From NCBI GenBank assembly GCA_003216435.1, contig QCIW01000001.1:62001-126000 (forward strand): DNA of 64,000 bases, written 5' to 3'. The DNA comes from Prochlorococcus sp. AG-402-N21. GTDB taxonomy: Bacteria; Cyanobacteriota; Cyanobacteriia; PCC-6307; Cyanobiaceae. This document shows, in pieces, positions 12,036-16,483 of the stretch. Position 1 is the first letter of the stretch; each line of letters starts with the position of its first letter. A model generated the notes under the pieces. That model searched no databases and was not told the origin of the DNA. It saw only the letters and a program-made list of their open reading frames with translations. The translations under genes and the position numbers were made by a program.

Positions 12036-12434
12036 TTAATTCTCTGCAAATAGATCATTAGTAAGTAAAAACCCCTTAAAGTCGGCTATGCCTTCTTGAC
12101 CATATAAACCTAAAGGACTTCCACACTTATCGATTATCTTATTAGCTATTTGATCTTGTAAATCATCAATATCACTTTTACTAAAAATATTCTTCTTTGA
12201 TATTTCCTTTTGAACTTCTCCGATTGAAAATTTTATAGCACTTTCTTTAGATATACCAAAACCTAATGAATTACAGAAATTTTTGCTAATTTTATTAGAC
12301 AATTTTATATTAGACCTTAAAGCCTTATCTATTGGTATATTCTCTGCGAATACTGGATGAGTAAATTGGACAGGAAAAAGATTAATTATGACTAATGCCA
12401 ATAATAAAAGGTAGTTGATCTTAGAAAAATCCAA
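12036..12434 (-). CDS. Secreted hypothetical protein, 132 aa
   Basis: An N-terminal signal peptide is clear: hydrophobic core YLLLLALVIINLFPVQF and a cleavage-like site near VFAEN (residues 28-32). The mature part is about 100 residues, helical and Lys/Ile-rich, with two Cys (KNFCNSLGF; DKCGSPLG) that might form a disulfide in the periplasm or thylakoid lumen. No domain recognised. Confidence 0.65.
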   Translation of the reverse strand: MDFSKINYLLLLALVIINLFPVQFTHPVFAENIPIDKALRSNIKLSNKISKNFCNSLGFGISKESAIKFSIGEVQKEISKKNIFSKSDIDDLQDQIANKIIDKCGSPLGLYGQEGIADFKGFLLTNDLFAEN

Positions 12435-12728
12435 TTGTAGGGAAAGATCTGGATAACTATGTGCTTTTATATTTTAAAGGCTTAAAGGCTTTTAAGATAT
12501 AGAGATTTAAAACTCAAATATGAAAGTTTATAAAACAGAGCTTTTTGGTTATCGATTGATGAGAAATTCTATGCTGCTTTAGGTTTTAAAGCTTGTCTTT
12601 AGGGGGGTAAACGCAAGCAAACTGAATGCGAGTTAAATATAGAAACCAAAATTTAGGTTTTGATTAAAGATAAAAAATGTCAGCTCCTAAAAAGTTTGTT
12701 ATCTTTTTTGATGTATATAATTTTGTAA

Positions 12729-12974
12729 ATGGCGACAAAGCGCGAAAAGTATCCTGAAAAATGTCCTTGGGATGGTGGTCCAGATCAAAAGTTAGCCAAA
12801 GAAGAAGAATGGGTAATGCGAAATGGAATTGAAACCGTTGTTTTCAGCAAAAACAAACTCGATGAAAATTACTTCATTATCAGAACGCCACAAAATGAAG
12901 AAACAATCTTAGCGTTTAGGGCCCGTCTTCTTTTTCAGAAGTTATTAGACAAAGGTTTTAAGCTACAGGAATAA
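12729..12974 (+). CDS. Conserved-looking hypothetical protein, 81 aa
   Basis: ATG start (MATKREKYPEKCPWDGGPDQ). A small, soluble, charged protein with one Cys near the N-terminus and an alpha/beta-like body (NYFIIRTPQNEETILAFRAR). No membrane helix or signal. The even codon pattern and absence of strong overlapping ORFs support a real gene; family unknown. Confidence 0.65.
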   Translation: MATKREKYPEKCPWDGGPDQKLAKEEEWVMRNGIETVVFSKNKLDENYFIIRTPQNEETILAFRARLLFQKLLDKGFKLQE

Positions 12975-13054
12975 AATATCACTGTAGTTATTTCTAGCTC
13001 TAGCTATTAAAAGAATATGTATCAAGTAAAAATAGAAATACAACTTAATTAGGT

Positions 13055-13447
13055 TCAGAAAAAATCTAAGGGAAAAGGTCCAAAAGTATCAGCTTGCTGA
13101 TCGAATTGATTATTTTGGCAACCCAAGAGAATTCCTTCTCCTAGTCCATATTCTATTCTTATGTGTACATCACCTGTTTTCTGATTTGCCTTAAGAAATA
13201 CAGGTCCGTCTCTATTTTCGCTAGAAGCTAGCTTCATAGTTTCCCAGGCAAAATAAACCTCTATGTTTCTCAAAGTTTTTATTGCTTTCGACTCAGAAGA
13301 AGCCATAATCCCAACTGTAAACCAATCAGCCGTATTAATATTTATTTTAAGCTCTTCTTGCAATAATCTAATTTGATTGATATCTAAAATTGGAGCTGTC
13401 CGAAGAGCATTTAAATCCTTCAAACAATTGATATTGTATGAACTCAT
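13055..13447 (-). CDS. DUF1824 family protein, 130 aa
   Basis: DUF1824 is a cyanobacterial family of unknown function. Family-like features are the N-terminal helix (QIRLLQEELKININTADWFT), the segment VGIMASSESKAIKTLRNIE at about residues 45-63, and the late Gly-rich motif YGLGEGILLGCQN. Length 130 is normal. It is soluble and alone. I am fairly but not fully sure of the family. Confidence 0.65.
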   Translation of the reverse strand: MSSYNINCLKDLNALRTAPILDINQIRLLQEELKININTADWFTVGIMASSESKAIKTLRNIEVYFAWETMKLASSENRDGPVFLKANQKTGDVHIRIEYGLGEGILLGCQNNQFDQQADTFGPFPLDFF

Positions 13448-13579: not shown

Positions 13580-13795
13580 TTAATTATATTCACCGGGAAC
13601 ATCATTTTTTCGGACTGTAACTTTACCCACCTTTTTACCAGAAAACCTTAATAGCTCATCTCCTGAGAATTCGAAGCCGAGTTTTAATGCAATTTGCGCT
13701 ACATCGTCTGCGGTAGAGGAGGATAACACTTCATTTTTTAATGCTGGTTCTGATTGCATCTTTTTTAAAAATTTTCTTAATTGATCTATAGACAT
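13580..13795 (-). CDS. Nif11-type leader-like protein, 71 aa, no core peptide
   Basis: The Nif11 domain is the leader of many cyanobacterial RiPP precursors (including prochlorosins) and also occurs alone. The start MSIDQLRKFLKKMQSEPALK, the A-DDVAQIALKLGFEFSGDEL helix pair, and length 71 fit it. It lacks the GG/GA cleavage site and a Cys/Ser/Thr-rich core: after the domain come only FSGKKVGKVTVRKNDVPGEYN and a stop, with no Cys anywhere. No lanthipeptide synthetase or peptidase transporter is in the window. It may be a stand-alone Nif11 protein of unknown function. Confidence 0.75.
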   Translation of the reverse strand: MSIDQLRKFLKKMQSEPALKNEVLSSSTADDVAQIALKLGFEFSGDELLRFSGKKVGKVTVRKNDVPGEYN

Positions 13796-14005: not shown

Positions 14006-14173
14006 CTAATTCTGCGCCATATAAAAACCAGCTACATTGTTGAGCATCTCAATTACAACTTGATTTGAGCATTTTGTTTTTTCTTGGAGAGTCATACAAG
14101 CCTCTTTGATGTTGACAAATGCATCTTCACATATTTCTGCCAATTGCTCTTCAGATAAATTTGATGAGGACAT
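14006..14173 (-). CDS. Small helical hypothetical protein, 55 aa
   Basis: I prefer the ATG at 14171-14173 (MSSSNLSEEQLAEICEDAF) to the upstream one at 14209, because the 12 extra residues are hydrophobic and unlike the rest. The protein is soluble and helical, with two or three Cys (EICED, EACMT, KCSNQ). It lies between the Nif11 gene and the free IF2_N gene on the same strand. No family recognised. Confidence 0.55.
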   Translation of the reverse strand: MSSSNLSEEQLAEICEDAFVNIKEACMTLQEKTKCSNQVVIEMLNNVAGFYMAQN

Positions 14174-14276
14174 TTGAACTAAAAAACTGAAAGTAGAATA
14201 ACAAACCATATGAATATGATCTATATAAGAATAAATAAATATTCCATAAAGATTTATTCAAGTCAGATTTGAGACC

Positions 14277-14441
14277 TCACTTATTCCTTTCCTCATAGTA
14301 ATCTGTTACCCTCTTTGCATCCAAAAGGCTTAAAGAGCTAATTCTTGAAGTGACAGGAAGATCAAGAATGGTGCAGACCGCAATCACATCAGATGTGTCT
14401 ACATTTAAAGCTTTTGCCAGCTCATTAACTCTTATTTTCAT
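14277..14441 (-). CDS. Stand-alone IF-2 N-terminal domain (IF2_N) protein, 54 aa
   Basis: ATG at 14439-14441, TGA at 14277-14279. The sequence MKIRVNELAKALNVDTSDVI, then CTILDLPVTSRISSL and a final helix LLDAKRVTDYYEERNK, matches the small helical domain found at the N-terminus of bacterial translation initiation factor IF-2. In IF-2 it precedes the linker and GTPase domain; here nothing follows. Neighbouring DNA in this strand shows no GTPase continuation, so it is not simply a truncated infB start. Role unknown. Confidence 0.75.
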   Translation of the reverse strand: MKIRVNELAKALNVDTSDVIAVCTILDLPVTSRISSLSLLDAKRVTDYYEERNK

Positions 14442-14578: not shown

Positions 14579-16483
14579 ATGGCTCTAATTAGTCTTATTG
14601 ATGCTGCCAAAGACTTTGGCCTCAAAAATCTCTTTGAGGGAATTGATCTCCATATTAATAATAAAGAAAGACTTGGCCTAATAGGTCCAAATGGAGCTGG
14701 TAAATCAACTCTTCTAAAAATTCTGGCTGGTGTTGAGCCTCTTCTTCATGGGAAAAGAGAAAGTGCCCCTTCACTGAGAATAAAACTTGTTGAGCAAGAT
14801 AGTTTTCTTGGGAAAACCCAATCAATTCTTGAATCAGTACTAGAAGGATGTGGTGATAAAAAAGATCTATTAATTGAATTCAGATCAGTTAGTGAAGATA
14901 TTTCCAATAATGAAAAAAATCCTCAACTTCTTAAAAAATTAGGATTGATAAGCGAAAAGATGGATATTGCTAATGCATGGAACTTGGAGCAACAATGTGA
15001 AGAGGTTCTTAGGAGACTAGGAATAAAAGAACTTAACAAGCCTGTAAAAGAACTATCAGGCGGGTATCGAAAGAGGGTTGCACTGGCCTCTGCTCTAGTT
15101 GGCAGTCCAGATGTTTTGCTTCTTGACGAACCTACTAATCACTTAGATGCTTCAGCTGTGGAATGGTTGCAAAGCTGGCTAGCAAAATTCAATGGTGCAC
15201 TTGTTTTAGTCACTCATGATAGATATGTATTGGATCGTGTAACAACAAGAATGATCGAGGTTAATAATGGGCAAATACGCAAATATGGAGGTAATTATGC
15301 AGACTTTTTAAAACAAAAATTAGCTCAAGAAGAATCAGAAATTGCGTCAAATAGAAAGTTTAAAGGTTTATTGAGAAAGGAACTCGCCTGGTTAAAACAA
15401 GGACCTAAAGCTAGAAGCACCAAGCAGAAGGCTCGTATCCAAAGAATTACAAAAATGCAAAGCAATTCAATAATTAATCGCGAGGATAAACCTGAGTTTA
15501 TAGATTTAACTTCTCGTATTGGAAAAATAGCAATCGAAGCGGAAGATCTTCAATTAAGAAAAACTAGAAATAATCAGAGTGAAATCTTATTTGATAGCTT
15601 TAGTTACAATTTTAGTCCCGAAGATCGAGTTGGAATCATTGGTAGAAATGGTTGTGGGAAATCAACACTTCTTGATATTATTGCTGGCAGGAAAAAGCCT
15701 TTTAGAGGTAAAGTCCGCATTGGGGAAACAGTGAAGATAGGGTATTTAGATCAACATAATCAAGACTTAATAAATCAGCATGGTTTAGAAAGAAAAGTGA
15801 TAGAGTTTATAGAAGAAGAAGCTTATCGAATAAAAATTAAAGGTATTGAGTATAATTCTTCGAAACTATTAGAACGTTTTTTATTTACTCCAAAACAACA
15901 ACATAGTCCAATATCAAAGCTCTCTGGTGGGGAGAAAAGAAGATTATCTATCTGCAGAATGCTTATCAAAGGACCAAACGTATTACTTCTAGATGAGCCA
16001 ACAAATGATCTAGATATAGAAACGTTAAATATATTAGAAGAGTTTATAAATAGCTTCAAAGGTTGTGTGGTTATCGTATCTCATGATCGATACTTTCTTG
16101 ATAGAACAGTAAATAGAATTTTCAATATCGAGGAAGAGAAAGTCACTAGGTTTGAAGGCAATTACACAGATTTTCTTGAAAAGAAAAAAATTAAAGAAAC
16201 CAATATTAAGACTAAACTAAATTCAATTAAAAATTCACCTAAAAAAACAAAGTTATCGATCAATCAAAATAAATTAAGAAAAAGAAGCTTTAAAGAAAAT
16301 ATAGAACTAAAGAATTTAACTGAAAATCTAATTGTATTAGAAGATGAAAAGAAATCACTAGAGCAATGTATCTCCAATAACAAAGGAAATACAACAAATC
16401 TAAGTAAAGATTTAGCTCATATAATCGAGTTAATTAATAGTTCAGAAGAGAGGTGGTTAGAATTAAGTGATATCGAGCCATGA
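14579..16483 (+). CDS. ABC-F family ATPase (Uup/Etta-type ribosome-associated), 634 aa
   Basis: ABC-F proteins are soluble twin-ATPase factors that act on ribosomes or nucleic acid, not transporters. The first domain has Walker A GPNGAGKS (residues 36-43), signature LSGGYRKR and Walker B LLLDEPTNHLD. The second has GRNGCGKS (about 354), LSGGEKRR and LLLDEPTNDLD. The linker between them is basic and helical (LRKELAWLKQGPKARSTKQK), and a Lys-rich coiled-coil extends past residue 560, as in Uup. There are no membrane segments. It is a single gene, ATG-started. Confidence 0.93.
   Translation: MALISLIDAAKDFGLKNLFEGIDLHINNKERLGLIGPNGAGKSTLLKILAGVEPLLHGKRESAPSLRIKLVEQDSFLGKTQSILESVLEGCGDKKDLLIEFRSVSEDISNNEKNPQLLKKLGLISEKMDIANAWNLEQQCEEVLRRLGIKELNKPVKELSGGYRKRVALASALVGSPDVLLLDEPTNHLDASAVEWLQSWLAKFNGALVLVTHDRYVLDRVTTRMIEVNNGQIRKYGGNYADFLKQKLAQEESEIASNRKFKGLLRKELAWLKQGPKARSTKQKARIQRITKMQSNSIINREDKPEFIDLTSRIGKIAIEAEDLQLRKTRNNQSEILFDSFSYNFSPEDRVGIIGRNGCGKSTLLDIIAGRKKPFRGKVRIGETVKIGYLDQHNQDLINQHGLERKVIEFIEEEAYRIKIKGIEYNSSKLLERFLFTPKQQHSPISKLSGGEKRRLSICRMLIKGPNVLLLDEPTNDLDIETLNILEEFINSFKGCVVIVSHDRYFLDRTVNRIFNIEEEKVTRFEGNYTDFLEKKKIKETNIKTKLNSIKNSPKKTKLSINQNKLRKRSFKENIELKNLTENLIVLEDEKKSLEQCISNNKGNTTNLSKDLAHIIELINSSEERWLELSDIEP

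Follow-up and report, generated by a model that had tools for sequence, protein, structure and literature searches.

The window, by which we mean the whole stretch of 64,000 nucleotides of Prochlorococcus sp. AG-402-N21 DNA that was analysed, carries on its reverse strand a complete ATG-to-TAA open reading frame (ORF) at positions 14277 to 14441, whose 54-residue product is MKIRVNELAKALNVDTSDVIAVCTILDLPVTSRISSLSLLDAKRVTDYYEERNK. By Pfam hmmscan, the sole match of this product was to IF2_N (PF04760), which scored 33.1 bits (E 4.7e-8; cut-off 25.3), with residues 2 to 50 aligned to positions 3 to 51 of the 53-position profile. The original prediction of a complete 54-codon gene with the IF2_N domain alone was therefore borne out by both frame and score, the latter lying above the model's threshold. 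The host assembly (1.36 Mb, 76% complete) contains three significant IF2_N matches: two lie within infB, a 1194-aa frame on contig C15, and the third is this gene, hereafter the mini gene, annotated as a free-standing, N1-type IF2_N from its Pfam match, orthologues, fold and pN/pS. A fourth match, on contig C8, was discarded as chance (E 0.12). The mini gene is not itself a gene for translation initiation factor IF2: it has no G domain, and the host IF2 is encoded elsewhere, on C15. Scans for promoters and terminators returned no signal beyond chance level.

Two genes on the same strand, both downstream of the mini gene, are those that had been placed beside it before, a small Cys-containing protein (14006 to 14209, reverse strand, 67 aa as listed, no family over cut-off) and a Nif11-domain protein of the Nif11-like leader family (13580 to 13795, reverse strand, 71 aa, 56.9 bits). 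The Cys-containing ORF may in fact start further in, at an ATG near 14173. The same-strand row ends with a DUF1824 protein (13055 to 13447, reverse strand, 130 aa, 119.1 bits). The Nif11 gene itself is present, and no modification enzyme or peptidase-exporter of a Nif11 RiPP cluster was found in the flanking ORFs searched. On the other flank, absent from the original prediction, lies a divergent ABC-F ATPase gene (14579 to 16483, forward strand, 634 aa), which passed the NCBIfam ribosomal-protection-like ABC-F model and matched the EttA and Uup models below their cut-offs.

Among 400 genomes of the picocyanobacterial family, small-frame homologues were found in 26 of 59 genera, all of which have small genomes of about 2 Mb or less; larger-genome Synechococcus-like genera gave no match, or infB alone at E ~1e-3. 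Orthologues of 51 to 66 aa in stand-alone contexts occur in other picocyanobacteria, a pattern that the original prediction had named as support. We aligned 25 members and used the alignment as the profile query for wider searches; all 25 match IF2_N, and some relatives fall just below the cut-off (for example L060, 24.6 bits). Across the phylum (292 genomes), the alignment found free-standing copies confined to the picocyanobacterial family, nearly all matches elsewhere lying in long frames of ~800 to 1190 aa, the size of infB, and some in frames of ~1500 aa. In a genome-contig collection 135 stretches matched, and the 80 listed were all named Prochlorococcus or uncultured Synechococcaceae. 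The same alignment found no match in viral contigs, tblastn found none in phages, and PHROGs gave weak matches, the best to an unnamed family (E 0.0019). Single-sequence scans of genome and viral contigs were empty, probably because the family is divergent, and a sequence search against solved structures gave a single chance match. An antisense ORF family, F3, was set aside as mostly reverse-strand overlap.

The mini-gene family is under purifying selection, with pN/pS of 0.17 to 0.22 inside four sub-groups. Measured between the RV.EL motif and the stop codon, 84 of the 87 distinct sequences of the high-light type share one length, and residues R4, E7, C23, S32 and L37 are invariant in the 25-member alignment. 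Because intact orthologues of this size occur in many genomes with such pN/pS values and invariant residues, the window ORF is not a chance frame; these results show that its product is a real single-domain protein, selectively maintained in Prochlorococcus-type picocyanobacteria. In the streamlined genome of Prochlorococcus, the most abundant of all photosynthetic organisms, a conserved 54-codon gene under purifying selection almost certainly has a function. A free-standing IF2_N is a known domain in a new form rather than a new kind of domain. We found no report of such a protein in Prochlorococcus in the open-licence literature, a coverage from which absence is not provable.

IF2 carries two IF2_N copies, N1 and N2, and profile comparisons show that the mini protein descends from the first. 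Mean hmmsearch scores against the mini family were 27.2 bits for N1 of other cyanobacteria, 18.5 for picocyanobacterial N1 and 6.9 for N2; in hhalign the N1 profiles reached E 9e-10 and 4e-8, as against 1.5e-3 for N2. The window protein itself (P0001) scored 38 bits against the N1 profile of other cyanobacteria. A stretch reading LAVC is common to the mini protein and to N1 of cyanobacteria outside the family and is missing from host N1, which suggests an old duplication or transfer. The structure prediction called for in the original prediction agreed: AlphaFold2 returned a beta-alpha-alpha-beta-alpha fold (pLDDT 92), whose best Foldseek matches in the PDB were the Thermus IF2 N domains (TM 0.92, rmsd 0.9 A), with E-values of just 0.007 to 0.012, as expected at 54 residues. 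That the protein is a maintained single-domain homologue of IF2 N1 is, in our assessment, very likely.

Despite this shared ancestry, the mini protein differs from N1 in several respects. Sequence homology, fold and the RxxEL and S..S.L positions are kept, but the protein has no linker, second copy or GTPase, is encoded by a separate gene at other loci, and has its own signature, C-x2-L-x-I-P-A-x-S-x-I-S-x-L. The residues YELS, NKD and KSHSS, conserved across cyanobacterial IF2, are gone, so the mini protein need not bind N1's partner. Most members are acidic or neutral (pI 4.4 to 6.7, with 6 of 25 at 7.8 to 8.8), against 9.2 to 9.5 for host N1, which points to contacts with protein rather than nucleic acid; together with the lack of a basic helix, this low charge disfavours direct DNA or rRNA binding. 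IF2 N2 (PDB 7UIU, PMC9192638) belongs to the same fold class (TM 0.78) but is a weak sequence match, and on our reading of the alignment its contact residues Ser-Val-Lys become Asn-Val-Asp in the window protein, host N2 also being without the Lys (SVE). A second tier of Foldseek matches comprised the MerR-like winged helices RacA, pSK1 Par, gpNu1 and BldC (TM 0.6 to 0.8), with excisionases and AlpA also represented. These MerR/Xis-type proteins are similar in size and topology, but no significant profile match links them to the family (HTH_17 in 1 of 25 members, E 0.06), and the second helix of the mini protein is acidic.

The chromosomal setting of the mini gene depends on the lineage. The high-light type (genus g17), presumably high-light strains to judge from the named Prochlorococcus strains whose records show this locus, has the gene at one locus. 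Of the 110 loci, 108 have dusA and an oppositely oriented DUF2470 gene, and 106 have a gene for a 79-aa secreted protein. The high-light strain MIT 9314 is among the carriers, the mini gene lying between the secreted-protein gene and DUF2470. In high-light genomes this 78- to 79-aa predicted secreted protein (L042:7782-8018 and homologues) lies just upstream of the mini gene, and its C-terminus, FGDEQTFPFVAGLGKNAAH, is fully conserved. Gene loss was considered for eleven high-light genomes without a mini gene and dropped: the adjacent DUF2470 and dusA are missing too, so the whole locus is absent or unassembled. The window genus, g1, and genus g56 share related but rearranged surroundings, with homologues of the Cys-containing protein and Nif11 and further shared neighbours. 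Homologues of the Cys-containing protein adjoin the mini gene in g1 and lie near it in g56, where both this protein (EDAFVNIKEAC..KC) and the Nif11 gene stay close by in rearranged order (L045/L046).

In group L (g10, g39 and others), the mini gene is convergent with a gene for a Lys-rich histone-H1-like protein, and in most cases the two overlap by a few bases. This pair is present at L066:7269-7914 and 12335-13004, is duplicated in G051, and occurs also in L054, L055, L064, L068, L071, L072, L077, L084, L088, L096 and L097. The window's genome has one copy of the histone-H1-like gene, at a site not linked to the mini gene, and a search of two high-light genomes gave no match to it.

Group M (g6, g13, g19-21, g28, g31, g36, g43, g53 and g58) carries the mini gene in islands, with several copies and fragments per genome; since these copies are related, counts from group M are not independent. 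In L051, L058, L059 and L074, the mini gene shares 4 bp (ATGA) with an intact 406-aa gene before it, start overlapping stop. The C-terminal R-H..GH..Y pattern identifies the 406-aa protein as a tyrosine recombinase, its Pfam Phage_integrase match being weak (15.6 bits, and 24.6 for a relative, against a cut-off of 27.1). These four recombinases (L059:618-1838, L058:7686-8906, L074:3434-4654 and L051:7884-9104) are 98 to 100% identical as proteins across four genera, which argues for recent transfer between lineages, and each is preceded by a 47-bp 3' fragment of tRNA-Pro ~160 bp upstream. Elsewhere just the 3' end of the 406-aa gene is left (L048, L052, L060 and L062) or it is broken (L090), and two further, diverged recombinases, type b (L049, L222) and type c (L073, L218, L219), have the mini gene after their 3' ends. 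In six loci, L048, L049, L052, L060, L062 and L090, an intact mini gene stands beside a truncated or decayed recombinase, which suggests retention independent of the recombinase, with the caveat that 54 codons are a small target.

Within group M, DNA identity begins exactly at the ATG of the mini gene where upstream sequences differ, and the first 46 bp of the gene with the common downstream sequence GGCATTAACCTATGAGATAAAAAACGC follow four different upstream sequences. Such 46-bp fragments lie at L218:284-329, L219:347-392, L220:2638-2683, L221:3920-3965 and L222:5044-5089; the four upstream sequences are the 3' ends of three recombinases and the 5' half of a tRNA-Pro. Both patterns point to cassettes reshuffled around the 5' end of the mini gene, for which homologous recombination between island copies would suffice. 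The identity from the ATG onwards had raised the mini gene as an integration site, an idea we dropped for tRNA-Pro, the better attachment-site candidate because its 3' fragments lie upstream of the recombinases. One island, in G059, holds a full tRNA-Pro(TGG), two 3' fragments and two mini copies. Group M copies, whose neighbouring tyrosine recombinases have tRNA 3' fragments at their flank, in this respect resemble tycheposons, integrase-linked integrative elements of Prochlorococcus (Hackl et al. 2023, as described through PMC10187409). These recombinases are, however, only putatively tycheposon integrases, and the window copy has no adjacent recombinase or tRNA fragment: its nearest tRNA is a tRNA-Gly 5 kb off, and no recombinase match was found in its own genome.

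We tentatively favour a host protein-interaction module derived from IF2 N1, which probably tunes initiation and which integrative elements carry as well. On this view a cyanobacterial infB would have undergone duplication of its 5' end, and the duplicated domain would have shed the GTPase and the N1 surface signature to become a small adaptor. Its partner would most likely be a protein of the initiation machinery, whether IF2, the 30S subunit or a 30S-bound factor, the most economical role given that N1 is the parent; the mini protein would tune initiation not as a copy of N1 but as its diverged decoy or co-factor. The gene is inherited at a fixed host locus in the high-light type, in a related chromosomal region in g1 and g56, and beside a tRNA-Pro-flanked integrase in group M, and both the fixed high-light locus and retention after recombinase decay favour a host role. 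The translation-side mechanism in particular is plausible but doubtful. Translation-related neighbours (ABC-F in the window, dusA in the high-light type) differ by lineage and may be incidental.

The repeated association with recombinases suggests a DNA-side role at least in group M, and it is the main reason to consider an element-borne protein that controls site-specific recombination, like an RDF or excisionase or an integrase regulator, translationally coupled to the integrase, with the high-light, g1 and g56 copies as its domesticated descendants. The ATGA overlap with an intact recombinase in four genera, the remnants before the mini gene in others, its position after two further diverged recombinases, the tRNA-Pro fragment upstream and the multiple copies per genome all fit, and the IF2_N fold resembles the MerR/Xis-type winged helices of the second Foldseek tier. 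In L111, moreover, a small basic HTH_17-like protein fills the same slot after a related integrase. Yet that protein has a pI of 9.6, against 4.4 to 6.7 for most mini proteins, whose second helix (TDDLLAVC) has no basic residue, unlike that of a basic DNA-binding winged helix. Most related recombinases have no mini gene, the high-light, g1 (window), g56 and group L loci have no recombinase directly upstream, mini genes outlast decayed recombinases, and phages gave no significant match. We regard recombination control as rather unlikely, and a direct recombination role as less likely than the initiation-side host module. An IF2-N1-derived protein could alternatively be a translationally coupled integrase partner, common to at least three diverged recombinases in picocyanobacteria, through which the movement of elements would depend on translation or growth state; this too is unlikely.

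The general idea of the original prediction, a free copy that competes with or modulates IF2, is compatible with these data but weakened by descent from N1, the lost signature residues and the low charge. Its strict form, in which a close N1 mimic competes directly with IF2 for its binding site, has the same fold and domain of origin in its favour, but with the N1 surface signature and basic charge gone it seems quite unlikely. A part in promoting subunit joining is reported for the N-domain of IF2 (PMC9192638), and N2 touches 16S helix h16 in the 70S initiation complex (Basu et al. 2022, PMC9192638). N2 is the sole IF2_N copy for which we found a described ribosome contact, and since the mini protein is N1-type and least like N2, that contact is no evidence for it. 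A small protein of the mobile-passenger or addiction type, held in place by local linkage and partnered in each lineage with its neighbour, would suit group L, where an acidic mini protein is encoded opposite a Lys-rich histone-like one and the pair is duplicated in G051; given that the histone-like gene is unlinked in the window's genome and unmatched in two high-light genomes, and that convergent orientation does not suggest a toxin-antitoxin pair, we consider this improbable. Least probable by far is that the ORF is spurious or decaying, left over from a duplication of infB. The ORF is very short and some group M copies are fragments, individually relics, but length, start and frame are conserved in ~110 high-light loci, and pN/pS in the four sub-groups rules this reading out for the family as a whole.

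To our knowledge, the role of N1 inside IF2 is poorly understood. The mini gene is a natural dissection in which evolution has isolated N1 as a separate protein, making that role testable, and its repeated adjacency to integrases in some lineages hints that a domain of an initiation factor may be connected with mobile DNA. In E. coli, a form of IF2 acts at recombination intermediates in Mu transposition and in the restart of replication, and cells without IF2-1, the isoform that bears N1, recover differently from DNA damage (PMC3334882). This offers a thematic parallel to mini genes beside recombinases, and not evidence, as the E. coli case involves the full GTPase-containing IF2 and another recombinase class, with no free N1 protein described. 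Were the integrase-partner reading true, IF2 would be tied to DNA mobility a second time, independently of the Mu case. The L111 protein (83 aa, below the Pfam cut-off), encoded 2 bp downstream of the recombinase stop, is a candidate excisionase for such elements. In some cyanobacteria of family f7 (G522, G558, G429, G578 and G644), a second IF2_N-like match lies in a ~1500-aa frame, which may be another IF2_N-containing protein.
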